In this document: positions 1 through 12,804 of the stretch, piece after piece
How positions within the stretch are numbered: position 1 is the first letter of the stretch
How the letters are laid out: each line of letters starts with the position of its first letter
From: Robiginitomaculum sp.
GTDB taxonomy: Bacteria; Pseudomonadota; Alphaproteobacteria; Caulobacterales; Maricaulaceae
NCBI GenBank assembly: GCA_026993275.1
Contig: JALWUB010000404.1
Coordinates: 1 to 13,043 of the forward strand
Reading direction: 5' to 3'
DNA: 13,043 nt
Program-made: the position numbers and the translations under genes
Notes under the pieces: model-generated
What the model was told of the DNA's origin: nothing
Databases searched by the model: none
Seen by the model: only the letters and a program-made list of their open reading frames with translations

Positions 1-37
1 GTCTTAATCCCTTTTTCTTCAGGGCATGTCTTCGAAC
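1..37 (-). CRISPR. CRISPR repeat at the window edge (leader-proximal repeat)
   Basis: A 37-base unit has the look of a type III repeat. Read on the minus strand it starts GTTCGAAGAC, contains CCCT and AGGG arms around an 8-base A-rich loop, and ends GGGATTAAGAC. The last eight bases, ATTAAGAC, would be the crRNA 5' handle. It sits beyond cas2' at the end of a type III-A cas operon, where an array is expected, and the window stops exactly here. Only one copy is visible, so the call rests on form and position rather than on repetition. The array should continue leftwards in the same direction as the cas genes. No second copy occurs elsewhere in the window. Confidence 0.68.
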
Positions 38-252
38 GCCTCGTCATGAATCTTGCCGAGTTTCCAATGGGTTGGCGGCAGGGTTGGGAAAAATGCACGA
101 CCGTGCAGGAGCTAACCCCTCTGTCCGCCTGTCCATCCCAAAAAGATCAACAATTTCAAAGAGCATTTTTCTCGTTGGTGTGCATTGCCGGCCGGAGCCG
201 GTCCAGGGTCCACAACATGACCATAGCATGCTCCTGGCGCCCGGCAAAGCGC
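38..252 (-). promoter_or_regulatory. Putative CRISPR leader between cas2' and the first repeat
   Basis: These 215 bases lie between the cas2' stop and the repeat, and hold no convincing gene. Their central part is more AT-rich than the flanking coding DNA, as leaders usually are; read on the minus strand it includes TGCTCTTTGAAATTG and a T-rich stretch. The leader contains a tandem pair CTGTCC-GC-CTGTCC (121-134) and a hairpin followed by five T (89-107). A TTGAAA at 154-159 (minus strand) could be a -35 element, but I see no good -10 at the right distance, so the array promoter is not assigned. Cas1-Cas2 would integrate new spacers at its left border. Confidence 0.6.
89..107 (-). terminator. 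Hairpin plus T-run in the leader: possible terminator of the cas operon
   Basis: On the minus strand TGCAC and GTGCA arms flank the tetraloop GGTC and are followed directly by TTTTT. This is the layout of a short intrinsic terminator about 145 bases after the cas2' stop. The stem is only 5-6 pairs, so termination would be partial. If it works, the array promoter must lie between it and the repeat; otherwise the element may be a leader motif for spacer integration. Confidence 0.4.
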
Positions 253-567
253 TCAATCCTGATCCGGACAGGCCCGCCAGCAATGGTGAAACCGCTCATA
301 AAGCGCATCATGCACGCCTTCGCTCCAGGGCGGACGCCCGTAAAGCCGCGCCCAGGCATTGCTGCCAAAGGGATAAAGGCGCACATCATCTTCCCCCCGG
401 TCGATCACTCCCTCCAGGGCCGCGGCCAGATCATGGCCGACAGCATGCCCCCCGGGCAGCCAGAACAGGGAGTATTGCAGGCGATACCCGGCCCGGCCGA
501 CAAGCTTGTAAACCTTGCGCCATCGTTTGGGCGCGCTGATGTCATAGGCCACGAGCCAGCCCATCAT
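253..567 (-). CDS. cas2: Second Cas2 protein (Cas2', CRISPR adaptation)
   Basis: A 104-residue protein that opens with the Cas2 signature: a first beta strand ending in AYDIS (Asp9 is the conserved Cas2 acidic residue), then a basic helix, a G-Y-R-L-Q-Y-S-L-F strand and a later DDVRLYPFG strand. Cas2 forms the dimeric core that bridges Cas1 dimers in the spacer integration complex. Its first codon shares ATGA with the stop of the Cas1-like gene, so the two are probably translated together; two ATG codons stand in tandem at the start. It is clearly different from the other Cas2 of this locus (2408-2686), which has the HGGQKSVWEC version of the second motif. It is the last gene of the operon before the leader. 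The family is secure; its distinct role is inferred. Confidence 0.85.
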   Translation of the reverse strand: MMGWLVAYDISAPKRWRKVYKLVGRAGYRLQYSLFWLPGGHAVGHDLAAALEGVIDRGEDDVRLYPFGSNAWARLYGRPPWSEGVHDALYERFHHCWRACPDQD

Positions 568-1433
568 TGCCGCCTTTCCTGCTTGGAGAACCCCGGCTGA
601 TGCTGATGCGTCAGTTCCAGCAAATGCCGGTACAAGCGCATCACGTCACGCACCAGAGAGCGGCGCAGGGCCGGCACGGTTGCTTCCACAGCCCTGGCCA
701 GGGCCGGGCCGGTAACCGGCCGGGGCTTCAGGCCATCCTTGCGCAGGGCCTTTTGCAAGGCCTTGCGTCCCTGGCTGGTGGTGGCCCGCCGGGCCAGCCG
801 CCACAAGATGATCTGGGCAAAGAGCGGCGCCAGGTTGCGGTCCGGGTCCGGGTCACTGCCCAGCCAGCGCGCCGGACACCCGCCCTCGCGCAAAAAGCGC
901 TGGGCCAGCAGCAGCGCAAAGCTGCGCATTTCGTTTTCAAGGCGCTGGCGGCGCGCCCGCGACAGAGGCCCGGCGGCGCGCAGGATCATGGTCTGGGCGG
1001 CGCTCCAGCCCATGCGTGCCGCCAGCGCCGGATCCGGCAGCCGCAAGGCCCGCGCATGGCGCGATATTTCCGCCCGGCGCCAGTCTTCCAGCCGGTCCGG
1101 CCAGTCCTGCTGGTCTGCGAACCGGTCCAGGGTGCTGGCCAGGCTGGTGCGCCGGGTGTTGCAGGGCATCAGCAGGGCCTTGATGCGCCCCTCGCCATCG
1201 AGAATGCCCACGGCAATGCCTGCCTGGCCCAGGGCGGCCAGCGCCTCGCTCTGCCACCAGACATCGCCGCGCGCCGTCACCTGGTCAATCCGGTTCATGG
1301 GATGGAGCCGGTCTGCCTGGTCTGGCGTGCTGATGCGCAAGGCGGCTGATTCCCTGTATACATCACAGCGCTTTTCAGTGCCGTCCAGCACCAGATGGGC
1401 TCTGGTGCCCGGCGCGGGCATGGTCTTGCTCAC
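564..1433 (-). CDS. Cas1-like protein without a recognisable active site (Cas1')
   Basis: A 289-residue protein between cas1 and cas2'. Residues about 20-95 align by eye with the N-terminal beta domain of the neighbouring Cas1: a run ending in R-(I/L)-x-P before a helix, then 'EALAALGQAGIAVGILDGEGR' in the place of the Cas1 strand that reads ISVLFLSGRR. The rest is helical and basic. I find no counterpart of the Cas1 GMEG glutamate, the LHG histidine or the SLDLxEP aspartate. Cas1 is normally the metal-dependent integrase, so this copy looks non-catalytic, perhaps a structural partner. The start is GTG at 1433, which overlaps the cas1 stop as GTGA and has GGGAG eight bases upstream; an ATG four codons in is the alternative. 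It could instead be a strongly derived, separately named adaptation protein. Confidence 0.62.
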   Translation of the reverse strand: MSKTMPAPGTRAHLVLDGTEKRCDVYRESAALRISTPDQADRLHPMNRIDQVTARGDVWWQSEALAALGQAGIAVGILDGEGRIKALLMPCNTRRTSLASTLDRFADQQDWPDRLEDWRRAEISRHARALRLPDPALAARMGWSAAQTMILRAAGPLSRARRQRLENEMRSFALLLAQRFLREGGCPARWLGSDPDPDRNLAPLFAQIILWRLARRATTSQGRKALQKALRKDGLKPRPVTGPALARAVEATVPALRRSLVRDVMRLYRHLLELTHQHQPGFSKQERRQ

Positions 1434-2404
1434 GGGGCTTCTCCCGGCCAGATGTCCTTTTGCGCGCGCAGCCAGTGCACGGCAAAGCGGGCATGCTGGC
1501 GCGCCAGCCTGCGCAAGGGAGCGGCCTGTGCTTCCCAGGCCGTGTAAAAATGCTGCCGGCCGGCCTTGGCCAGCAACATGCCGCCTTCCGGCGTGGCCTT
1601 GAAATGCCGCGCTGTCAGGGTGCGGCGGGCAAAAAGGCCCTGGGTGAAGCGATCGACCAGCGGGCGCAAGGGCTCGACCAGATCCAGCGACAAGGCCGGG
1701 CGGCCATGGCCAAGGCCGTGCAGGGCACCTATGGCCGTATCCAGCCCGGCCAGGGCAGCGGCCCGGCCCGCCTCGAAGACAGCCAGCGTGTAGCCCAGGG
1801 AGAGCACCGCATTGACCGGGTCTGGCGGCGGCCGGCGCTTGCGGGCCTCAAACCCCAGCGATGGCGCAAAGAAGGCCTTGTAACTGCTGAAATAGCCGGC
1901 GGCTGCCGCGCCTTCCATGCCGCGCAGCCAGTCCAGACCAGGCCCGGACTGCTGCACGATCTGCTCTTGTGCCGTCTTTGTCGCGCGCAGGCCAGAAGCT
2001 GCCTTGCGGGCCCCGCCCGGGCAGGAATGCGCAAGGGTTTCCAGCACCCGGCGCTGACGGTGCAGCTTGGCCAGAACCAGCATGCGCGCCAGCTGGCATC
2101 GCGTTCGTGCATCCGCACAGGCCAGAACCTGGGCCACACGAATGCCCGCATCATTGTGCACGCCGCCATGAAAGCGCGCGCCCGGCTCGCTGCGCCTGCC
2201 GGACAGAAACAGCACGGATATGCGCCGCTCCCATAGTTGTGCGAGAAGCCCGGAAGTGCATGTCGCCGCGCCCCTGATGATCAGACGCTCCATGCCCCGC
2301 AAGGGAATGCGCCGGGGCCCGGCATCGGGCACACGCAGCTCCAGCGCGCCATCGCGATAGCCCAGAGCCGCATCCTTGCGGTCGATATAGACAGCCGCAA
2401 CCAT
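1430..2404 (-). CDS. cas1: CRISPR-associated endonuclease/integrase Cas1
   Basis: A 324-residue protein of normal Cas1 length. It cuts and joins prespacer ends into the first repeat, with Cas2. The N-terminal beta domain spans about residues 1-90 and the alpha-helical catalytic domain follows. Metal ligands are in their usual contexts: Glu164 in GMEG, His229 in ALHG, and Asp241 with Glu244 in SLDLVEPLRP. The RRPPPDPVNAVLSLGY segment (190-205) is typical for the family. The ATG lies three bases after the cas2 stop with only a weak ribosome site (GTGGGC), so translational coupling to cas2 is likely. The stop overlaps the GTG of the Cas1-like gene. This is the only Cas1 here that looks catalytic. 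Confidence 0.93.
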   Translation of the reverse strand: MVAAVYIDRKDAALGYRDGALELRVPDAGPRRIPLRGMERLIIRGAATCTSGLLAQLWERRISVLFLSGRRSEPGARFHGGVHNDAGIRVAQVLACADARTRCQLARMLVLAKLHRQRRVLETLAHSCPGGARKAASGLRATKTAQEQIVQQSGPGLDWLRGMEGAAAAGYFSSYKAFFAPSLGFEARKRRPPPDPVNAVLSLGYTLAVFEAGRAAALAGLDTAIGALHGLGHGRPALSLDLVEPLRPLVDRFTQGLFARRTLTARHFKATPEGGMLLAKAGRQHFYTAWEAQAAPLRRLARQHARFAVHWLRAQKDIWPGEAP

Positions 2405-2407
2405 GGC

Positions 2408-2686
2408 TCAGCCCACAAAGATGACGGGGTCATCCTCGGCCAGCACCGCGCGGCCCAGGGCCATGGCCTGGTCAAAACGGGGCAGCAGGAAAGCCAGCCG
2501 GTCTTCGCGCACATCCACATGGGCAAACAGGCCGGCCCCCATCTTCTGGCGCTCGGCGGGCAAGAGAAAACATTCCCAGACGGATTTCTGGCCGCCATGG
2601 GCCCAGTGGCTGACAGCAGCCCGCGTTCGGGCCAGACGGCGCGGTTCGCTGATGTCATAGGCAGACAGGATGCATTGGCGGGTCAT
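2408..2686 (-). CDS. cas2: CRISPR-associated protein Cas2
   Basis: A 92-residue protein with the Cas2 ferredoxin-like pattern: SAYDIS with Asp11 at the end of strand 1, a basic helix (EPRRLARTR), then HGGQKSVWEC and a strand with DVREDRLAF. It should pair with Cas1 in the integration complex. The order cas2-cas1 is the reverse of the commonest one. It opens the adaptation half of the locus after a 103-base gap. The ATG at 2686 has a strong GGAGG four bases away, but that ribosome site overlaps one arm of an 8-base inverted repeat (2693-2700 / 2726-2733), so its translation may be controlled. A 15-codon reading frame upstream ends in ATGA with this start. Confidence 0.9.
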   Translation of the reverse strand: MTRQCILSAYDISEPRRLARTRAAVSHWAHGGQKSVWECFLLPAERQKMGAGLFAHVDVREDRLAFLLPRFDQAMALGRAVLAEDDPVIFVG

Positions 2687-2789: not shown

Positions 2790-4124
2790 TCAGAACCCTT
2801 TTGGCAGATGATCTGGCAGTTGCGGCAGGGTGGGCCGGCCCAGCAGGTCTTCCCAGAGGACCGCCTTCTTGTCATCAAACCAGGCCTTGGCCAGCACCCA
2901 ATCACGTTCACCAAGCGGCTTGAACCCGTGCGCCAGAATCGAATTATTGCGATTGCCCTGCCAATTTGGTGGGTTCTCCTTCCAGATACGGGCCAGTTTA
3001 TCCTTTGGGTCCTTGCAGGCGAGGTAATCCCTTGCATCTTTGAGGCCCAGCGGCACCGTTTCAGACGGCTTGCCGGTTTTGTGGTCCTCTCTGGGGCGCT
3101 GTTTCTCTCTTATTTCTGGCGGGAGATCAGCAAGAGGCACAGTTTTGGTGTTGATGCCAAAACGCTCATGAAGCCGGGCCTGCACGCTCGCTTCTGCCAG
3201 CCGGTAAAGCCGCGCAATGGCATCGTCAAACTGCCCCCTGTGCGCCCGGCGCAGGGCATTCAGCCACAAATCCTCAACCAAAAGCACGGACGGCAATCCC
3301 TTGACTCCCGCCAAGGCTTTCAGGCGGCCATCCAGCCTTGCCTGCACCAGCAATTCCGCCCAGGGCGCACCGTTTTCATGGGCTGTCTGCCAAGCGCGAA
3401 AGGCCCCGGCGTGATCAAAACGATCCCACAGATCAAGCACGGTCAGCCAATGCTTCCAGTTTGCCAGCCGCTTCATCCAGCTTTTGGGCGGCTTGATGGC
3501 CTGCCCATCTGAGCCGCCCATCATTCTTTGGGCTGTTTCTATGGCGGCGCGGGCAGCGGCATAATCGTAAGAGCTGACGAAGCCGCGCACGGTGGTGAAA
3601 ACCTGCGCGAAGCTCATCAGGTGCTGCGGGATTTCGGTGGCCGCCTCGCTGCCGCTTTCGACACGCACCAGATCGGTGCGCTTGCCCGCCATGAACTGCA
3701 GGCGCGCGCCTTCATGGCCCGTGGCCGCCATGACCAGCGCCGCCGTCATGCTCTTGGTGCCGCCGGTATAGTCGGCAATGACAGCATGATTTTTTCTGGC
3801 CAGTTCGGTCATAAGCGGTTCGATCAGGCTCAGGGCCTTGCCAGGATCGTCCGGGGGAACCTCAAGGCAATAGTACTGATCCGGGCAGCCCTCACAGTAT
3901 TGCAACCCGGTGGTTTGCTTTTCCTTGCCCCCTTGCGTGTAGGTGGCCACCTTGTCCTCAACCATGTTGCGTGAAGACTCGCTGCCATCCGAGCCATTGG
4001 AGACCACGAACACCGCATAATCGGGGCGGATGGTCCTGAGAGCCGTCTGCAAGGGCTCCGGGCTGCCGCCCACGGTGAGAAACAGGGCGGTTTTCTGCTC
4101 TTCATGGGTGTCGTTCGTCATCAT
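2790..4124 (-). CDS. csm6: Csm6-like CARF-HEPN ribonuclease (TIGR02710/Cas02710 family)
   Basis: A 444-residue protein. The N-terminal half is a CARF domain: TVGGSPEPL at residues 17-25 and ADYTGGTKSM at 117-126, the loops that hold cyclic oligoadenylate. The C-terminal half is a HEPN domain ending in the catalytic motif R392-NNSILA-H399 (R-X6-H), followed by GF, as is usual in the TIGR02710 family. The protein should be an RNase that Cas10-made cyclic oligoadenylate switches on, degrading RNA indiscriminately during infection. An unusual Cys77-x2-Cys80-x5-Cys86 group sits inside the CARF domain and might bind metal. The ATG (followed by a second ATG) shares ATGA with the csm5 stop and has AAAGG upstream. 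It ends the interference half of the locus. Some databases call this family Csx1 rather than Csm6. Confidence 0.88.
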   Translation of the reverse strand: MMTNDTHEEQKTALFLTVGGSPEPLQTALRTIRPDYAVFVVSNGSDGSESSRNMVEDKVATYTQGGKEKQTTGLQYCEGCPDQYYCLEVPPDDPGKALSLIEPLMTELARKNHAVIADYTGGTKSMTAALVMAATGHEGARLQFMAGKRTDLVRVESGSEAATEIPQHLMSFAQVFTTVRGFVSSYDYAAARAAIETAQRMMGGSDGQAIKPPKSWMKRLANWKHWLTVLDLWDRFDHAGAFRAWQTAHENGAPWAELLVQARLDGRLKALAGVKGLPSVLLVEDLWLNALRRAHRGQFDDAIARLYRLAEASVQARLHERFGINTKTVPLADLPPEIREKQRPREDHKTGKPSETVPLGLKDARDYLACKDPKDKLARIWKENPPNWQGNRNNSILAHGFKPLGERDWVLAKAWFDDKKAVLWEDLLGRPTLPQLPDHLPKGF

Positions 4125-5506
4125 GCCGGGCCTTTGATCTCCGAAACCTTGATGGTTTCAATATCGCCAAAAAAATCTACCCTGACCTCCGTTGACGTTG
4201 CTGTCACATCATCCAGCAAGGTGGCTTCTTCCCCGTCCGTCAGCAATATCTTCTGGCCCCTGGCATAGCGAAGCTGGCTGCCCAGAACGGTCTGCGGGCG
4301 GGACGGCTGGCTGCGGGCATGGCCGCCTGGCCGGATGGGTGCATGGGCACCCGGCGCAGGGGGCTTTAGCCAGGCTTGCGGGGCCTGCCAGCGATCCTTG
4401 CGCACCAGCAGGGCCCAGCCAAAGGGTGCCGGATGGCCATTGAGGTTGAGCACATGGCGAGTGCTGCCTTCCCTGGCGTATTTGTTGGTTTTGGATTGCG
4501 GCCTGAAAATATTGCGAAAACCCGCCACGGATTTTGATTCTGCATGACCGGCCCAGCCAAGGCGGATGAGCGCGGCGGCGGGGTCATCGCTGTTGCGGTC
4601 AAGATGATCAAAGAGGGCCAGGGCCTGGCGCAGCCGGTTGCCAGCATCACCCTTGAAAAACTTCTCCTCCACCTCGCGCTGCCACAGGGGGGCGTGATGG
4701 GCATTCAGGGCGGCCAGAATCTGCGCCATGGTTTCCGGCGTTTTTTTGGGCCATTTCCGTCCCTCGCTGCCCAGTGCAGAGCGGCTCTTGCGCACGGCGG
4801 CATCGCGCAAGCCAATGGCCAGGGGAATGAGGGGCGGCTCGCCGCCATCAACAACAGACAGCAGGCGTTCCTTGTGGAGCTGGCCTACGCTGGCAAATGT
4901 ATAGGTGCCCTCCTTTTTCTTCCAGGTATGCACCTGGTCGATGCGTGTTGCGCTTTTCAGCGGGCCACTGTCTTCAACCGTAACATCCCGCATGGGGTCG
5001 GTGTCTGTCTGGTTGTGCTGATCAAGAGCGAAGGCGCGCTGGACAAGCTGCGCGCCGCTTTTTGTAGAAAATCCTTGCAATTCGCGCGCGCACCTGGCCA
5101 GCCAGGCCGTGCGCAAGGCCCCCTTGAGCGAGGAGCCCGGCAGGAAGGGAGCGTTTGCGGCGCGGATAAAGGCGCTGATGGCATTCAGGCGCGGCTTGCC
5201 GCTGCCAAGCTCGTTTGCAGATTCTGCCCCCAGCGGAATGGTTTCCGTGACCAGGCCATGCGCTTCAGGAAGGCCCAGCACCCGGTCTATGGCCCCCTGT
5301 GCATCTTTGGCCACCCAATCCAGCATGGCCTGGCGTTCATTGGCATCCAGTCTGGCCAGCACGGCGCGGGCAGAAACCCGCTCCACCCGCCGGTTCCGGA
5401 TGCGGTAGTCCTCCGGCAGCCATTCTGCTTCTTCACCACCGCCCACATGAACAGGGGTCAGGGGCACGAACAGGAATTCTGTCATGTCAAACTGCGGCTG
5501 GCTCAT
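4121..5506 (-). CDS. csm5: Csm5, RAMP subunit of the type III-A effector
   Basis: A 461-residue RAMP protein that should cap the 3' end of the crRNA in the Csm complex. The N-terminus has FLFVPLTPVHVGGGEE (residues 11-26), and FLPGSSLKGALRTAWL (121-136) is the loop that also appears in Csm3 and is typical of both subunits. HPAPFGWALL near 358 is the late glycine-containing strand of the family. The start at 5506 was chosen because it overlaps the csm4 stop as ATGA, has GGAGG seven bases upstream, and begins directly before the RAMP domain; the frame is open further upstream but that part has no family character. After residue 370 there is a proline-rich linker and about 45 residues of alternating strands (QKILLTDGEE to IKVSEI), an unusual tail discussed in the findings. 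Confidence 0.87.
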   Translation of the reverse strand: MSQPQFDMTEFLFVPLTPVHVGGGEEAEWLPEDYRIRNRRVERVSARAVLARLDANERQAMLDWVAKDAQGAIDRVLGLPEAHGLVTETIPLGAESANELGSGKPRLNAISAFIRAANAPFLPGSSLKGALRTAWLARCARELQGFSTKSGAQLVQRAFALDQHNQTDTDPMRDVTVEDSGPLKSATRIDQVHTWKKKEGTYTFASVGQLHKERLLSVVDGGEPPLIPLAIGLRDAAVRKSRSALGSEGRKWPKKTPETMAQILAALNAHHAPLWQREVEEKFFKGDAGNRLRQALALFDHLDRNSDDPAAALIRLGWAGHAESKSVAGFRNIFRPQSKTNKYAREGSTRHVLNLNGHPAPFGWALLVRKDRWQAPQAWLKPPAPGAHAPIRPGGHARSQPSRPQTVLGSQLRYARGQKILLTDGEEATLLDDVTATSTEVRVDFFGDIETIKVSEIKGPA

Positions 5507-6438
5507 ATCGTTGCCTCCAGCGGGGCCTCGGCAAAGGGAATGGTGACATGAAAGCCATTGAGGCCAATTTCCGGGCGCTCCGGGTGGATGCCTGTCAGCC
5601 AGCGGCCACAGGGGCCGCTGCCTTCGGGCCTGAAACTCGTTCCGGGCCTGGTCAGCAAGACCGGTTTCTTGAAAGGGGAATAACCGCAAAGCGCAATCTG
5701 CGGCCCGGCGCGGCCAAAATGCGGCTCAAGCTTCCACAGGGCATCACGCATGGTCTCTGGAGTCAGAACACCGCGGGACAAACTCATGCGCCGATCGCCC
5801 TGGCCCTTGAGCAAGTCCTTCTCTTCCTCAATTGATTCCACAACCCAGCGCCCGCGCCCGGTCGAGGCATCGCGCCCGTATCCGGCCGCACCCAGCCGGG
5901 CGAACAGGCCTTTTACAGCTTCGCCGCCATCATCCGTTTCAACATAGATGTCCACCAGGTCCGGAGAGGCTTCCCCTTTTTCCTTTTCCAGCGCAAAGCG
6001 CCAGTCTTCTTCGAGAAAGAACAGGCCGCCTTTGTCCAGCGTGCCGCGCCCCTGACGGTCAATCACATTATGGGCGGTGCGGCGTGGCAGAGCGGCATCC
6101 TTTCGAAAATCATCCGTTGCAACCGCATATTCGTTCCAGTGCCCCTGATGCGCCAGCCAGGTCTTGCGCCGCACAAGGGTGCGTTTCTTGCGCTTTTTGT
6201 GATCCTCGGGCGGGGCAGCAGTCTGCACACGCGGACGGCACAGGGGTTTGGGCAGGAAATCGTGGGGAAAGCCGTCAGAAACACGCCACAATCGCTGTGG
6301 CTGGGCAAGCCAGTCCTCCAGTGCCGCTTCGCCTTCGGCCTCGTGCTTGACCCAGCACAACTGGCCAAAGACTGTCGGACTCGCCAGGGGCGTGCCAAGC
6401 GGTGCTGTCAGCCGCAGCGTGAGACGGTAGAGTGTCAT
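5503..6438 (-). CDS. csm4: Csm4, RAMP (Cas5-like) subunit of the type III-A effector
   Basis: A 311-residue protein. Csm4 holds the 5' handle of the crRNA and contacts Cas10 at the foot of the complex. The N-terminus (TLYRLTLRLTAPLGTPLAS, then a FGQLCWV helix) is the usual Csm4 opening, and the glycine-rich loop GYGRDASTGRGRW (residues 186-198) is the RAMP signature of this subunit. A markedly basic stretch (HKKRKKRTLVRRKTW, 80-94) lies in the middle and probably contacts RNA. The ATG at 6438 follows the csm3 stop by ten bases, and GAGGAG overlaps that stop as ribosome site. The stop overlaps csm5 as ATGA. Position between csm3 and csm5 supports the call. Confidence 0.87.
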   Translation of the reverse strand: MTLYRLTLRLTAPLGTPLASPTVFGQLCWVKHEAEGEAALEDWLAQPQRLWRVSDGFPHDFLPKPLCRPRVQTAAPPEDHKKRKKRTLVRRKTWLAHQGHWNEYAVATDDFRKDAALPRRTAHNVIDRQGRGTLDKGGLFFLEEDWRFALEKEKGEASPDLVDIYVETDDGGEAVKGLFARLGAAGYGRDASTGRGRWVVESIEEEKDLLKGQGDRRMSLSRGVLTPETMRDALWKLEPHFGRAGPQIALCGYSPFKKPVLLTRPGTSFRPEGSGPCGRWLTGIHPERPEIGLNGFHVTIPFAEAPLEATI

Positions 6439-6448
6439 GACCGGCTCC

Positions 6449-7246
6449 TCAGTTCAGCGCCTGTTCCACCTTGGCCAGAATGGCCGGATCGGGTTGCTCC
6501 GGTGAAAACCGGAGGGCCTGCAGCGGCGTTTCATTGTCATCAATGCGCACGTCCTTGCCGGCAGGCCCTGTCAGCGTCAGGTTCTCAAAGCTGATGCGGC
6601 CATAGCCACGCGAGCCGGAGCCTCCCAGGGCATCCTGTTCCAGCAGGCCAAGCCCCTGCAGCAGCCAGGCGAGGCACTCGCGGTCGCGCTTGCCGCCATC
6701 ACCGTCCACGTCATAAAGGCGGAAACGCGCCTCAAACTCGAACGCGGCCCCGGGGGGGACGCGTTCGGTCTGGCGGGGACCAGCTTTGCCGGCCTTTCCG
6801 GCAACGCGATCAATCAGGACCTCCGTCTTGGATTCGGTCAGTTCACGCCCGGCCTCAAGCACCTTGGCACGCCAGTTTTTGTTCAGCATGGCATCGCGCA
6901 TCAACAGGCGCGTGGGACCGGCACTCCAGGCCTCTTTTTTTGCTGGCGTGCCGAAAATGCGCAAAACCGGATCTTCGGGATCACAGCCGTCGTTCCCGCC
7001 GGTCCACGGACTGCCGTCCTGCGAGACCTTGTTGAAGGCCCATTCGAGCAAGAAGCGCAGCTTGCCCTTGAGAGACGAGCCGGGAATATAGGGATCACCC
7101 TCCGGCGTCTTGACCACCGGGTTGTCAATGCCGCCTATTTCGACGGCATCCTTGCCGGCACCGATGTGCAGCCCGGTATTGATCACGATCCTGCCCTTGA
7201 GCAAGGCCTGCCCGCAGGACCTAATGGGGACGCTGTTCTCTGTCAT
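6449..7246 (-). CDS. csm3: Csm3, backbone RAMP and target-RNA nuclease
   Basis: A 265-residue protein, the repeated backbone subunit that coats the crRNA spacer and cuts the target RNA every six bases. HIGAGKDAVEIGGIDNPV (residues 27-44) contains the catalytic Asp41 in the usual GG-x-D-xP context. YIPGSSLKGKLR (53-64) is the RAMP loop, and GGSGSRGYGRISF (208-220) is the glycine-rich loop. The start is set at ATG 7246 because AGGAG lies seven bases before it. A longer frame back to a TTG at 7282, which would overlap the csm2 stop, and an ATG at 7252 placed too close to that ribosome site, are less likely. This leaves a 32-base gap to csm2, the largest inside the interference half. Confidence 0.92.
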   Translation of the reverse strand: MTENSVPIRSCGQALLKGRIVINTGLHIGAGKDAVEIGGIDNPVVKTPEGDPYIPGSSLKGKLRFLLEWAFNKVSQDGSPWTGGNDGCDPEDPVLRIFGTPAKKEAWSAGPTRLLMRDAMLNKNWRAKVLEAGRELTESKTEVLIDRVAGKAGKAGPRQTERVPPGAAFEFEARFRLYDVDGDGGKRDRECLAWLLQGLGLLEQDALGGSGSRGYGRISFENLTLTGPAGKDVRIDDNETPLQALRFSPEQPDPAILAKVEQALN

Positions 7247-7278
7247 GTTCATTCTCCTGATCTGATCGGCAACTGCCT

Positions 7279-7743
7279 TCAACCCTTCCTGTTTTTCTTT
7301 GCTTCTTCCTTTTTCTCAAAGACCTTGTGCCAGGCCACGACGGCCTCGAAATGACGCACAAAATGGTCAAAATCGGCCAGGGTCTTGACCAGCCGGGCAT
7401 GATATTCGGCGAAATCGGCCAGGGGTTTACGGTCCTCGTCGCGCGCTGCCGTATAGGCCGTTGAGGCCTTGAGCATGGCCATGGCCACCTGGGCATCGCT
7501 GTCGGCAGGCTTGTTGCCGGTCTCCGCACTCAGGTCAAAACGGCGCTTGTCGGCCATGGCGGAGCCGAAGAAACGGCGCACCTGCGACGTTTTTATGCGA
7601 GCCCACAGTTTTGCCTCAGCCTGCGCTTCTTCGTCAAAGAGTTCCGGACGCAGATTGCCTTCTCTGTCCGTATAGGATTTTGGCTGCAGCGGCGGAGGCT
7701 TTTGCCCGGATTGAAAGCCTCTGTTGTGTTGTGACTGTGCCAT
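7279..7743 (-). CDS. csm2: Csm2, small subunit of the type III-A effector
   Basis: A 154-residue mostly helical protein. Csm2 forms the inner filament of the Csm complex beside the target RNA. The core VRRFFGSAM (residues 55-63) and the helices with HARLVKTLADFDHFVRHFEAVVAWHK (115-140) match the Csm2 pattern of a helix bundle with scattered basic residues. The first 30 residues are glutamine- and proline-rich and look unstructured; the last 12 are lysine-rich. ATG 7743 was preferred over ATG 7749 because AAGGAAG stands six bases before the former and directly touches the latter. It follows the cas10 stop by 13 bases. Small-subunit families diverge quickly, so position between cas10 and csm3 counts for much of the confidence. 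Confidence 0.85.
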   Translation of the reverse strand: MAQSQHNRGFQSGQKPPPLQPKSYTDREGNLRPELFDEEAQAEAKLWARIKTSQVRRFFGSAMADKRRFDLSAETGNKPADSDAQVAMAMLKASTAYTAARDEDRKPLADFAEYHARLVKTLADFDHFVRHFEAVVAWHKVFEKKEEAKKNRKG

Positions 7744-7756
7744 GGTCATCTTCCTT

Positions 7757-10351
7757 TCAGCGGTTGCGGTAGAGCGCATGGGTGAGGACGAAGCGGGCAA
7801 GGCCGGAATAACCTTGCTCGCGCAGGTCCTGATCGAGGCCAAAGAGCCTGGTCAGCATGCCGAACAGGCGCGCCTGCTCGGGGTCTGTGAAATGCTTGGG
7901 CAACTGCCGCGCCAAGTGATAACCCAGACGGGCCTTCCAGACATAATCGCCGGGCCGGATCTTGTTTTTGATACCTGACTTGCGACTGGCAAGGCGGCGG
8001 CGCGAATCGTCCAGGGACAAGAGGCGATAGAGGCCGCTGGTCGAGAGCAGGTCTTCACGCATGGCCAGGTTCAGCTCTTCCGCCTGTTTCAGTGCTCCGG
8101 CATAGTCCGGCCAGGTCATGGGAGAGGAGGAAATGGCACAAACCCGGTTGCGGCCGCTTTCCTTGGCCCTTTCCAGCCTGTCTTCAGCCTCCAGGGCGGC
8201 AATCGAAATGGGCGTGCGGGCATCGAACAGCGCCAGACCAGCCGACAGGGTCAGGTCGGGATTGCCAAGGGAAAATCGGGCAAAATCTTCCTGCAGGTCA
8301 CGAGCCAGATTGAACATGTCCCGCCAGGGCCCGACCAGAAAGAGGTCATCCCCGCCGGCATAAACCGTGTAGGTATCGGGGTAATGCTGTTTGAGCCACC
8401 AGGGCAGGCGGATGGTAAAATAACCATCCAGCATGCGCGAGAGCGCCGATTCGCGCGCAAGGCTCCAGCGCTCGCCAAGCCCGGATCCAAAGATCTGTCC
8501 CAGCCGGTCCACATCCGCCTTGAGCACGGCCAGCATGGGACGGCCCAGGCGCGTGCCGTTCACCAATTCGGTGGAATCGTGAGCAAGAGCCGCAAAGGTC
8601 TTGATGTGGCCAGCCTGTATCTCATCGGAGTCGTCCCGGTCATCGTCCATTTGGCGATAAGCCTTGAGCGTCTCTTCATCTTCCCCGAACAGGGGAACAT
8701 AGGCCTGGTTGTGACGAACCGGGGCAGGACCATGGGCGGCTTCGTCAAAACGCCAGCCCAGTTCGCCATCATGCGCCGCTCTGCCTTCGCCCAGGGGAAG
8801 AAGAACATTGCCGCCAAAAATGCTGTCTGCATCTTTCGCTGAAATCTTTCCGGGCGCCATGATGATGGCCCGGGCCTTGGGAAACCGCTGGCCATTTTCA
8901 TGCTCAGCCCTGCAGGCCACGCAGTGTCCATCCTCCTCTTGCGCGGGCCGGACACCGCAGGCTGCGCATACCCCGTGGGGATAGCGCATGTCCTGCACGG
9001 CCCTGGACGCTGGCCCCTGCAATTGGCGCAGCTTGGCTGCCTCAATGGCGTAACGCAGCTGTTGCCTGACCTTCCGGCTGCGCCTGATGGCGGGCGCCTT
9101 GTCCCTCTTCTCTTCTGGCAGTGGATAAAGATCGCCAGGCGCAAAGGGTTCGCTCAAGGCCAGGCCAAGACCCAGATCACCGCAATACTGACCGGCCAGC
9201 CAGTCATCGAAGGCACTGCGCAGTTCATCGACCTTGCGCCGCATGGTGTCTTCGCCCAGTTCAGGCAACAGCAGGGTAAAGCGCCCGCCGGCACTTTGCA
9301 GGGCCGCAGAGGTTGGCATGTCAAAAGCGATGAGGATTTTGCGAATGGCCATTTCCGCAATCAGCTGAAAACGCAGGGACCGGCCGCGCAAAATGCGATT
9401 CAATCCCTTGACCTGTTCGCTTTTCAGACGAAACAGGGTCGATTGCAGGCCGGAAAGATCGCCCACCAGAAAGCGCAACTTGTTTCTGTGCGGATCCCTT
9501 ATGGCGTCAATGTCCGTGAGTTCTTCACGGGCCTTGTGGTGGTGATACAGGGCCGCAGCAAACCCGGCCACCGCGCGGGCGTGGTCATAAAGCGAAACAT
9601 CGGGTTGATCGATCGTGGATGAAGGGACAGCCCAACATGTCCTTTCCATGAGCGAGAGAAGGCCTTCTTCAAAAGCGCGCGGATCACCGCCGGAATGCGC
9701 AGCAATCTGCGGCCAGCCGGTCTGAAATTCCTGCCACAAGGCCTTGTAGCCGTCTTCAACTTCAACCGGGTCATATTGTGCCTCTGGCATGAGGGCCTCG
9801 GCGCCAAAGCTGGCCGTCCGGTAATAGCCTTTCGTATATTGCCTTTGTGAATCACCGTCATTTTGCCCATCCCCCGCAAGACGTATGGCCGTTGTGATGC
9901 TGTCGAGAGGAGTCTTGCGAAAACCGGCACGCACCTTTTTGTCGGCTTCCGCCTCGGCATCCTTTTCCTTGCGCTCAAAGCCGGACGCTGCCCGGTCGGC
10001 CATGGTCACCAGCCAGGTGGTGGCCAGAAGGGGGTCCTTTTCATAAGCCTGCAGAGGCTTGTGGTGGTAAACCGCCAGATCGCGCACCCAGTGCCTGTTC
10101 AAGTCCTTCGGCCAGACCGTGCCTTGCTCTTCTGCCCAGTCGAAGAAGGCATCGCTCCAGAGCGCGTGCCAGTGACTTGGCCGCCCTTGCGGGTGCGGCA
10201 AAACATCTTCCTGGCGCGCGTAGACAGCTTCGGGCAGTCCCGTGTCGCCACCCGCACGCTGGGACAGTTTGCCAATATCATGCAGCAGTCCACCCAGGGT
10301 TACATCCCAAACGGAGGGGGCCGCTGCTTCCCGGATATGCTTCTTGCTCAT
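7757..10351 (-). CDS. cas10: Cas10/Csm1, large subunit with HD and GGDD cyclase sites
   Basis: An 864-residue protein with the complete Csm1 layout. The N-terminal HD nuclease domain shows His24-Asp25 in LLHDIGKLSQRAG, His96-His97, and Asp119 in MADRAAS. The first palm domain contains SLYDHARAVAGFAAALY (253-269) and DLSGLQSTLFRL to LRGRSLRFQL (298-330). A zinc ribbon follows with Cys462, Cys465, Cys477 and Cys480. The second palm has KADVDRLG (Asp613, Asp615) and AGGDD (Gly666-Asp669). Both activities, ssDNA cleavage and synthesis of cyclic oligoadenylate from ATP when target RNA is bound, therefore look intact. The ATG shares ATGA with the stop of the CARF gene upstream; AGG four bases before it is a modest ribosome site. 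The product should feed the two CARF proteins of the operon. Confidence 0.95.
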   Translation of the reverse strand: MSKKHIREAAAPSVWDVTLGGLLHDIGKLSQRAGGDTGLPEAVYARQEDVLPHPQGRPSHWHALWSDAFFDWAEEQGTVWPKDLNRHWVRDLAVYHHKPLQAYEKDPLLATTWLVTMADRAASGFERKEKDAEAEADKKVRAGFRKTPLDSITTAIRLAGDGQNDGDSQRQYTKGYYRTASFGAEALMPEAQYDPVEVEDGYKALWQEFQTGWPQIAAHSGGDPRAFEEGLLSLMERTCWAVPSSTIDQPDVSLYDHARAVAGFAAALYHHHKAREELTDIDAIRDPHRNKLRFLVGDLSGLQSTLFRLKSEQVKGLNRILRGRSLRFQLIAEMAIRKILIAFDMPTSAALQSAGGRFTLLLPELGEDTMRRKVDELRSAFDDWLAGQYCGDLGLGLALSEPFAPGDLYPLPEEKRDKAPAIRRSRKVRQQLRYAIEAAKLRQLQGPASRAVQDMRYPHGVCAACGVRPAQEEDGHCVACRAEHENGQRFPKARAIIMAPGKISAKDADSIFGGNVLLPLGEGRAAHDGELGWRFDEAAHGPAPVRHNQAYVPLFGEDEETLKAYRQMDDDRDDSDEIQAGHIKTFAALAHDSTELVNGTRLGRPMLAVLKADVDRLGQIFGSGLGERWSLARESALSRMLDGYFTIRLPWWLKQHYPDTYTVYAGGDDLFLVGPWRDMFNLARDLQEDFARFSLGNPDLTLSAGLALFDARTPISIAALEAEDRLERAKESGRNRVCAISSSPMTWPDYAGALKQAEELNLAMREDLLSTSGLYRLLSLDDSRRRLASRKSGIKNKIRPGDYVWKARLGYHLARQLPKHFTDPEQARLFGMLTRLFGLDQDLREQGYSGLARFVLTHALYRNR

Positions 10352-11436
10352 TGTGCCTGTGGTTCTCCTGCTTGTTCCAGAACAGGGACGACTCTGATTT
10401 CACTGGCATCCAGTGCCAGCCGGTAAATCGCATGCGCACGCGGGCCCGTGCGCTGGACAAGCCTAGCGCCCCTTGGCCTGATGCCACAATCACTGGCAAG
10501 CTTGGCAACTCTGGATGCCTTTTCCTCCATCCATTCCGGATCCAGAGGATCGCTTGTTCTTGACAGTGCATTTTGCACCTGGCGGGGGCTGGCAAAGCGC
10601 CTGTAGAATTTTATGAATTCAGCCAGCGGGCTGCCCACCCGGTCAAGCCCGGCATTGCCGTTTTGAAACTGGGCGGCAGCCAGCCATGCCAGCCATGCCG
10701 CAAGATTGGGCGGAAAGGACAATCGCTTGCCGTCCCAGAAAATACATCCTTGCGGCAGATCAATGACCAGACGCGCATCTGAAAGCACTTTGCTGGTCTG
10801 CTGGATCATTTCATCCAACGCATAGTTTCCTTCAGGCACAAACCGGCGCAAGCGAACATACGGGATTTCGAAAAGCTGCACCTCTGTCGCAGAGGCGTCC
10901 ATGACACCGCCGTCCCGGCCCGCCATCATCTGCGGTTCAGGCGGAGGATAGAAGAAGGACGGATTAAGCGTCACATTGTCCGGCACCAGAACATGACTCA
11001 GTTTGTCTTGCGGGCGGCCATAGAGAGACAGGGCCTGTGTCACCAAGGCAGATGCAGGCTTGCGGCCACCGGCAAGGGACACATGCAGCTGCGTGTCTTG
11101 GTCATCACAGATTTCACTGATGATCTCGGCAATGCGCGATGCAAACAGCAGAGTTGCGCGTGAAGCGTCAAGATCGCCACTGTCCGTATCAACAATCTCC
11201 AGTCTTGCCTGCTCGGCCAGTTTTCTGGCCCAGGGCGCGCGCCACTCCTTTGCATACCGGTAGAGTGCCCCATTATGACGATCGAGCAACAGATGGCGAC
11301 ACCCTTCCCCGCCGCTTCGGGTAGTGACCAGAACCAGTTGATCCGGTATCCAGTTGTCTTGACGATCCAGGGCGTAGAGGGTTTCCGTCACCACCTGTGG
11401 CGAAAGTCCAACCGTACAGAGAAGAACCTTCCTCAT
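10348..11436 (-). CDS. CARF protein of the NE0113 family (database name 'ring nuclease Csm6'), with a possible winged-helix C-terminus
   Basis: A 362-residue protein. Residues 1-200 are a CARF domain of the NE0113 family: CTVGLSPQVVTETLYAL (7-23), SLAGGRKPAS (120-129) and RPQDKLSHVLV (141-151). CARF domains bind cyclic oligoadenylate and in some families also degrade it. Unlike the Csm6-like protein of this operon it shows no HEPN domain; R329 and H335 are six apart but in a poor context. Residues about 222-255 (LVIDLPQG, WDGKRLSFPPN, AAWLAWLAAA) and 318-342 recall the helices and wing of an OmpR-like winged helix. It may thus be a sensor-regulator or a ring nuclease. The start at 11436 shares ATGA with the cas6 stop and has GGGGAG directly upstream; the open frame before it lies inside cas6 and has no CARF character. 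Confidence 0.83.
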   Translation of the reverse strand: MRKVLLCTVGLSPQVVTETLYALDRQDNWIPDQLVLVTTRSGGEGCRHLLLDRHNGALYRYAKEWRAPWARKLAEQARLEIVDTDSGDLDASRATLLFASRIAEIISEICDDQDTQLHVSLAGGRKPASALVTQALSLYGRPQDKLSHVLVPDNVTLNPSFFYPPPEPQMMAGRDGGVMDASATEVQLFEIPYVRLRRFVPEGNYALDEMIQQTSKVLSDARLVIDLPQGCIFWDGKRLSFPPNLAAWLAWLAAAQFQNGNAGLDRVGSPLAEFIKFYRRFASPRQVQNALSRTSDPLDPEWMEEKASRVAKLASDCGIRPRGARLVQRTGPRAHAIYRLALDASEIRVVPVLEQAGEPQAQ

Positions 11437-12353
11437 CTCCCCAGTTCCACCCGCCCCAGCCCCATGCTGGTGCCCTTGCCAACGTGCAAAACAGGCAGCC
11501 ATGCGAGGATGTGGCGCAATTGCGGACATCCGGTCATATCCAGCTTGATGCTGCCAAGAAGCCCGCCTATGGCCTGGCTGGATTTCTGACGGGAAGAATA
11601 TCGCCTCAGCTGATGCCACCGCAAATTTGCATCCAGCAGGACAAGACGGGAACTTTCCTGTTTCAGGGCCTTGAAATCCGGTCCGTCGTCAGAGTGGCCA
11701 AAGAACGCATTGATCAACCCCAGGCGCCGGGTCATCGCCATGGCAAGGGCTCCCGGATCAAAACTTTCACTGGTGCAGAATCGCCCAGCCGTCTTGATAC
11801 GCAAAGGGGTTCGAAAATGAAAAATGGCCGAAGTGCCCAAGGGGTTCGGTGCGCCTTGCATGACCGGCTCCGGGTAATGTCCTTCACCCGTCCATGGCGT
11901 GCCGGACTCCTCAGAAGTGGCGATACTGGATAGAGAGAAACGCGTTTTTTCCTTGCCAAATCCATATTGGCCCGCTTCCTCGAAGGCGCGCAAGACGAAT
12001 GGTGCTGCCTTGCAGGCATCACCGAAAAGCCGCAGTTTGAAGTGTATCCGCGCGTTATGCCCAGTTTGCCTGGCTCGTGCGTGCCGCATGTCTGTCACCA
12101 GCACAAAGGGGTGCGGTGCCCGCTTGTAACGGGTCATGATGCCGGCATCCGGCCGCGGCCGGGTTTCAAAAATGGTGGTATATGTACAAGCGTATTCCAA
12201 GGGACAGCCGGTACAGTCCCGAAGACGCATGGCGCACACCACGCGCTTCAGGGCATGTCCGAATATCCCTCTCAACATGGACCCCGGAAACTCAGGCTCT
12301 GCCCACGGCTCTTCAGACTCGTAGTCTAAGCGATATTCGCACCATGAAAGCAT
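11433..12353 (-). CDS. cas6: Cas6, pre-crRNA processing endoribonuclease
   Basis: A 306-residue RAMP protein that should cut the array transcript within each repeat and leave the 8-base 5' handle. The N-terminus has PGSMLRGIFGHALKRVVC (residues 23-40) and a cysteine group (Cys40, Cys47, Cys50, Cys56) of the DCTGCPLEYACTY type seen in this Cas6 branch. The C-terminus has LLGSIKLDM (264-272) and the glycine-rich HVGKGTSMGLGRVEL (290-304), the family's RNA-binding loop. The catalytic histidine is not assigned. ATG 12353 is the only reasonable start: a stop lies nine codons upstream. It has no ribosome binding site, but a predicted -10 element ends only seven bases before it, so the message may be leaderless. 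It is the first gene of the operon and overlaps the CARF gene as ATGA. Confidence 0.9.
   Translation of the reverse strand: MLSWCEYRLDYESEEPWAEPEFPGSMLRGIFGHALKRVVCAMRLRDCTGCPLEYACTYTTIFETRPRPDAGIMTRYKRAPHPFVLVTDMRHARARQTGHNARIHFKLRLFGDACKAAPFVLRAFEEAGQYGFGKEKTRFSLSSIATSEESGTPWTGEGHYPEPVMQGAPNPLGTSAIFHFRTPLRIKTAGRFCTSESFDPGALAMAMTRRLGLINAFFGHSDDGPDFKALKQESSRLVLLDANLRWHQLRRYSSRQKSSQAIGGLLGSIKLDMTGCPQLRHILAWLPVLHVGKGTSMGLGRVELGR

Positions 12354-12728: not shown

Positions 12729-12804
<76 letters not shown>

Follow-up and report, generated by a model that had tools for sequence, protein, structure and literature searches.

The stretch of DNA analyzed here, which we call the window, is a whole contig of 13,043 bases (JALWUB010000404.1; G000:C404) from the 2.44 Mb draft genome of a Robiginitomaculum sp., and at one of its ends lie the four adjoining genes of a clustered regularly interspaced short palindromic repeats (CRISPR) adaptation module. 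All are encoded on the minus strand, on which they follow one another as cas2 (2408–2686; 92 residues, GGQKS type), cas1 (1430–2404; 324 residues, catalytic residues kept), cas1′ (564–1433; 289 residues, a diverged Cas1 lacking the catalytic Glu and His) and cas2′ (253–567; 104 residues, RLQYS type). Three bases separate cas2 from cas1; cas1 and cas1′ overlap by GTGA at 1430–1433, and cas1′ and cas2′ by ATGA at 564–567. We thereby confirm the arrangement described in an earlier note on this DNA, in which two unlike Cas2 genes flank two Cas1-type genes on the same strand with a 3-base gap and GTGA and ATGA overlaps. The module closes a type III-A locus and stands beside the contig edge, where a single copy of a CRISPR repeat, at positions 1–37 of the window, marks the adjoining array that an adaptation module should have.

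Both flanking proteins exceed the cut-off of 23.8 bits for the Cas2 profile PF09827, cas2 with 26.6 bits (expectation value, E, 6.8e-6) and cas2′ with 52.6 bits (E 5.4e-14), and with TIGR01573 (cut-off 24.5) the former falls below at 15.3 and the latter above at 31.8. The two paralogues are also set apart by the motifs GGQKS, which cas2 carries in all 69 aligned loci including the window, and RLQYS in cas2′, which forms its own clade in a quick tree. The product of cas1 matches PF01867 at E 6.3e-65 and has the catalytic Glu, His and Asp; its residues E164, H229, D241, E244 and K280 are kept in all 69 aligned loci.

Its companion Cas1′ matches PF01867 over residues 20–96 only, at E 9.5e-5 and with 22.1 bits, just short of the cut-off of 22.3. 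The PADLOC profile PDLC01185, named "Cas1, diverged variant, second in the loci", matches residues 15–121 at E 5.7e-9, and the gene indeed stands directly after cas1. Homology to Cas1 extends over the whole length of the protein in an hhalign comparison (probability 98.4, E 4.3e-15, 260 columns), and the AlphaFold2 (AF2) model, with a predicted local distance difference test (pLDDT) score of 89.3, has a predicted Cas1 fold in which both domains match Cas1 structures, the N-domain with 79 residues at 1.7 Å to 7kft_D and the C-domain with 164 residues at 3.8 Å to 3god_A. The catalytic set, however, is not retained. In the profile alignment the E164 position is gapped, the H229 position holds mixed letters and the D241 position is Asp in 53 of the 69 loci, though not in the window, and at no column of Cas1′ does Asp, Glu, His or Lys reach 90% of the loci. 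Judged by profiles and predicted fold, the product of 564–1433 is a Cas1-fold protein and not an active Cas1. Conservation is highest in its N-terminal domain, the one by which Cas1 monomers pair, with 39% identity against 23% in the rest of the protein; the corresponding values for Cas1 are 45% and 50%. A dedicated non-catalytic monomer would be expected to look like this, its pairing domain kept and its active site lost.

Such a monomer is already part of related enzymes. The available passages of PMC6977970 describe casposase dimers formed through an N-terminal beta domain from a catalytic and a non-catalytic monomer, the active site of the latter facing away from the DNA, and report the same asymmetry in the Cas1 dimers of Cas1–Cas2 integration complexes. 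In casposase, as those passages have it, one gene provides both monomers and there is no Cas2, whereas the module would split the roles between genes. Cas1′ would then be the permanent non-catalytic monomer, the working unit would be a Cas2 core with a Cas1–Cas1′ heterodimer at either end, and both strand transfers would fall to Cas1. A division of roles for Cas1′ is well supported, and a Cas1–Cas1′ heteromer appears likely. On balance we favor, as somewhat probable, the fuller reading that these genes form a distinct adaptation module of four proteins that is passed on as a unit and inserts spacers into the neighboring type III array, with Cas1′ serving permanently as the non-catalytic protomer of a Cas1–Cas1′ integrase.

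This form of the adaptation module is widespread, its members fall into one group, and the arrangement is more general than the earlier note knew. Entry through cas2 used a profile of four GGQKS proteins (3,472 protein matches, 120 of them listed and the rest possibly including ordinary Cas2) and a genome scan with a motif built from 36 proteins, which returned 160 stretches, 148 of them confirmed. Among the best 80 of these 148 loci, ranked by closeness to P0061, the order cas2-cas1-cas1′-cas2′ on one strand is found in 67, a figure that depends on the cas2 motif; the pattern, [TS]GGQ[KR]SV[HF]E, would miss the cas2 of the window itself (GGQKSVWE). Genes were assigned with the starting profiles; iterated profiles mixed cas2 with cas2′. 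By record titles the 80 loci belong to Pseudomonadota (72), Acidobacteriota (5), Campylobacterota (1), Nitrospirota (1) and Planctomycetota (1), and since many of them are metagenome assemblies, the phyla with a single locus should be taken with care. Two of the 67 complete loci have a shortened gene, cas1′ in L037 and cas1 in L079. In L036, from the methanotroph Methylotuvimicrobium buryatense 5G, the four genes lie at 8001–10299.

Had Cas1′ and Cas2′ been mostly decaying or unlinked copies, as the earlier note allowed, the incomplete loci should tell of it, and they do not: five of the 13 run off the contig (L046, L050, L070, L081 and L106), and in each of the eight broken ones (L032, L053, L055, L059, L067, L068, L085 and L101) it is cas1 that is shortened or missing. 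In three of the latter (L055:1296–2457, L067:3894–4428 and L101:4955–5795) cas1 is gone and cas1′ gone or shortened, with cas2 and cas2′ still recognizable.

Searches with Cas1′ serve as an independent check. Profile searches gave three clear genomes other than the window's own (L023, L024 and L025; E 1e-12 to 4e-20), each with the full set. Drawing 398 genomes from the phylum gave 29 matches at E ≤ 1e-8, one of them the window's own; among the 28 others a true Cas1′ is present in six, five with the full set and one in which the contig ends inside cas1′ after cas2 and cas1. Taken together, eight of the nine non-self genomes with Cas1′ have the complete module and the ninth is cut by the contig end, so that the co-occurrence of both pairs in the same order, which the earlier note had proposed to look for in other genomes, holds from either entry point. 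The remaining 22 matches of the draw proved to be ordinary Cas1, with no Cas1′ in the stretch examined, and of the 14 weak non-self matches of the profile searches, 13 were ordinary Cas1 proteins accompanied by a single Cas2, while L022 had no profile match. None of these 35 ordinary Cas1 loci (13 and 22) has a second Cas1 within the roughly 2 to 12 kb seen. A Cas1′ search of plasmids found nothing, and a first genome scan with nine Cas1′ proteins yielded 68 pattern matches and no relative among them.

Because dead paralogues often regulate their active kin, Cas1′ together with Cas2′ might instead have a regulatory function, competing with Cas1 as an inactive subunit and so limiting or timing spacer uptake. 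In three loci a histidine kinase gene lies between cas1 and cas1′ (L043:3933–4715, L045:1356–2147 and L051:1648–2442, the last two near copies), and HisKA and HATPase_c domains are present in both kinases tested (L043 and L045); control genes can therefore enter the operon, which lends this idea some support. A dispensable brake, however, should often be lost, and among the 80 loci cas1′ is present in every one that has intact cas2 and cas1 and enough contig, albeit shortened in L037. We regard regulation as an improbable role.

Inheritance of the four genes was examined with quick trees of chosen representatives, which have few Cas2 columns and long Cas1′ branches and so support grouping rather than an origin for Cas1′. 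In a tree of 29 cas2, 29 cas2′ and 18 ordinary Cas2 proteins each kind occupies one side of a branch, with Shimodaira–Hasegawa-like approximate likelihood ratio test (SH-aLRT) support of 98 for cas2 and 88 for cas2′; the same holds for 26 cas1, 26 cas1′ and 16 ordinary Cas1 proteins, with support of 96 for cas1 and 99 for cas1′. Pairwise distances among the four proteins correlate at 0.83 to 0.90 over the 69 loci, a level reached in none of 500 permutations, and the module is therefore inherited as a unit. Median ratios of nonsynonymous to synonymous substitution (dN/dS), taken over at most 39 close pairs that have loci in common and hence are not independent, are 0.167 for cas2, 0.194 for cas1, 0.199 for cas1′ and 0.212 for cas2′; 473 mostly distant pairs were set aside for saturation. 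In close pairs all four genes are thus under similar purifying selection. Over longer times Cas1′ evolves fastest, with a mean pairwise identity of 0.28 compared with 0.56 for cas2, 0.49 for cas1 and 0.42 for cas2′.

The rapid divergence of Cas1′ and its shortening in L037, L055 and L101 are what one would see if cas1′ and cas2′ were tandem duplicates heading for loss, with no function of their own. The dN/dS of cas1′ in close pairs nevertheless equals that of cas1 (the largest single-pair value is 0.55), and each paralogue forms one clade in place of many recent copies, so that this explanation, already disfavored, seems very improbable indeed. The earlier note had further held that gene duplication split the roles of the two Cas1 proteins, and the single clade per paralogue, the fact that only Cas1′ has lost its active site and the purifying selection on Cas1′ and Cas2′ all speak for that part of its proposal.

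A more serious alternative is that the module encodes two complexes, with Cas1–Cas2 as an ordinary symmetric integrase and Cas1′–Cas2′ as a separate accessory complex that either handles prespacers, by capture, trimming or delivery, or recognizes leader DNA. Each Cas1 gene adjoins one Cas2 gene, and conservation is higher in the pair cas1 and cas2 than in the more diverged cas1′ and cas2′. The ends of the Cas2 proteins also differ, as if their partners did. The C-terminus of cas2 is uniform, ending in [YFIL][VIFA][GS] in 56 of 69 loci with a length of 94 residues in 60 of 69, whereas cas2′ varies from 85 to 138 residues over the 69 loci; in one system the C-terminal strand of Cas2 pairs with Cas1, according to the passages of PMC6977970. 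We take this difference as a hint that the two Cas2 proteins may have different partners, a hint that suits two complexes as well as one. What speaks for a single complex is that neither pair is found alone, Cas1′ occurring in none of the 35 ordinary non-self loci and an active Cas1 standing beside Cas1′ in nine of nine, and that a Cas1′ with a pairing domain and no active site resembles a partner of the active Cas1. Two separate complexes are unlikely, although less so than a regulatory role.

Several observations weigh against the Cas1–Cas1′ integrase that we favor. In 53 of the 69 loci Cas1′ has an Asp where Cas1 has D241, so that some metal-binding or structural role may remain, and the fast evolution of its C-terminal domain fits a looser constraint too. 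Weighted mutual information between Cas1 and Cas1′ is higher than in three re-paired controls, but co-inheritance gives the same, and the signal is therefore no evidence of contact. The listed Cas1′ homologues (8 non-self in one listing and 44 in another), drawn from a scoring of only the 7,998 candidates that share most words, are 189 to 308 residues long with no fusion among them; the listing allowed at most 1.75 times the query length, so that a fusion could not appear. Finally, 13 of the 14 genomes checked have further matches to PF01867, which in four of the 13 are all weak (under 60 bits), and it is therefore from linkage that we infer the acquisition of spacers by the module for the array beside it.

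The earlier note had gone further and proposed an inherently asymmetric integrase. Here a correction is needed, in that Cas1–Cas1′ heterodimers at both ends still make a symmetric complex. The ends would differ only if the core were a mixed Cas2–Cas2′ dimer; with self-paired Cas2 proteins they would be alike. That two Cas1–Cas1′ heterodimers sit on a Cas2–Cas2′ core in an obligately asymmetric integrase, duplication having given each protomer, catalytic or not, a gene of its own, and that this integrase itself sets the leader side and the spacer orientation, is in our view a tentative proposal, distinctly less probable than the heteromer reading, if a little more so than two separate complexes. 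Spacer orientation without host factors is speculation.

Compared with the canonical Cas1–Cas2 integrase, in which four Cas1 and two Cas2 subunits assemble to integrate spacers, the module has in common an active Cas1 with Glu, His and Asp, a PF09827 Cas2 and an adjoining CRISPR array, and differs in adding a dead second Cas1 and an unlike second Cas2 in the same operon and as a conserved set. The type I-F Cas1–Cas2/3 integrase, as portrayed in the available passages of PMC12259127, likewise must insert the spacer in one orientation but is a C2-symmetric heterohexamer, whereas the module encodes parts for an asymmetric one. The Cas1′ gene itself is already known to curators, since the name of PDLC01185 shows that they were aware of the gene and its place; PADLOC offers a profile and a name only and is silent on the second Cas2, the lost active site and the function. 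The four-gene module is not described in the passages of PMC3150331 or PMC5626976, and in the latter's passages the two-cas1 strains have their cas1 genes in separate loci. A search of open-access literature by title and start of abstract, with subscription papers mostly outside its scope, found no functional account of the module.

As far as the passages cited here go, described Cas1–Cas2 integrases either have symmetry or assemble from dimers of a single Cas1, although they must insert each spacer one way and into one end of the array. A natural module in which both subunits are split into unlike pairs offers a direct test of the roles of the protomers and of whether an asymmetric core determines orientation. 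It also presents a dead enzyme kept as the fixed companion of a live one, in loci from five phyla by record titles. If the reading we favor is true, a memory-writing enzyme that is usually symmetric may here consist of unlike halves.

The repeat at 1–37 (minus strand), the first of an array that lies outside the assembly, shares GCCCTGA and AAGGGATTAAGAC with the module-side repeats of other loci; the chance estimate made for it took its pattern from the window and so is no independent test. It lies about 215 bases from cas2′, and the interval at 38–252 (minus strand) is, by position, a probable leader between cas2′ and the array. The contig ends inside this first repeat, and the spacers of the locus are hence absent from the assembly. 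Array-like repeats occur in 45 of 83 loci, with at least one further call (L083, upstream) that is without the usual repeat. For comparison, repeats were selected by a rule that required their last bases (GGATTAAGAC-like), and the rule itself accounts for part of their constancy. In complete loci the array lies downstream of the module in 27 cases (median gap 153 bases) and upstream in 17 (median 333). Near relatives with similar repeats have no identical spacers in the three pairs compared, L035 and L036 (62 and 19 spacers), L083 and L091 (10 and 2) and L084 and L094 (31 and 69), which suits spacer turnover. A protospacer search of two arrays against phages gave no match, and one array (L094) searched against plasmids gave one, to the Thiothrix lacustris plasmid NZ_CP133219.1, in eight pieces at 74%. 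That plasmid record is 21.6 kb long and may carry a related CRISPR array.

The locus that the module closes is of type III-A, with Cas10/Csm1 and Csm2 to Csm5 all recognized by TIGR and PADLOC profiles. The minus-strand order is cas6, an NE0113-type CARF gene, cas10/csm1, csm2, csm3, csm4, csm5 and a CARF-HEPN gene, followed by cas2, cas1, cas1′ and cas2′. Of these genes, all on the minus strand, cas6 lies at 11433–12353 (PADLOC Cas6, E 1.8e-78), cas10/csm1 at 7757–10351 (TIGR02578, E 3.3e-151), csm2 at 7279–7743 (PADLOC Csm2, E 3e-17), csm3 at 6449–7252 (PADLOC Csm3, E 5.3e-60), csm4 at 5503–6438 (TIGR01903, E 6.7e-19) and csm5 at 4121–5512 (TIGR01899, E 2.5e-12). Genes like the window's cas10, csm3, csm4 or csm5 are present in at least 16, and a cas6 like its own in at least 28, of the 63 loci of 7 kb or more, both counts being lower bounds limited by flank length and by the use of one query per gene.

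Two unlike CARF proteins are encoded in this one III-A locus, a CARF-HEPN protein resembling Csx1/Csm6 (2790–4124; TIGR02710, E 7.6e-44) and the NE0113-type protein (10348–11619; TIGR02584, E 2.8e-43, over residues 65–261 of the long open reading frame), whose NCBI name is ring nuclease. The true start of the latter is probably internal to the open reading frame, near 11436. Elsewhere in the same genome an ordinary Cas1 gene followed by a Cas2 gene lies on another contig (G000:C477; L026:9094–10236), which probably indicates a second CRISPR system. Islands commonly insert at tRNA genes, and a tRNA-Ala gene is found at 12729–12804, on the same strand as cas6 and some 375 bases upstream of it.

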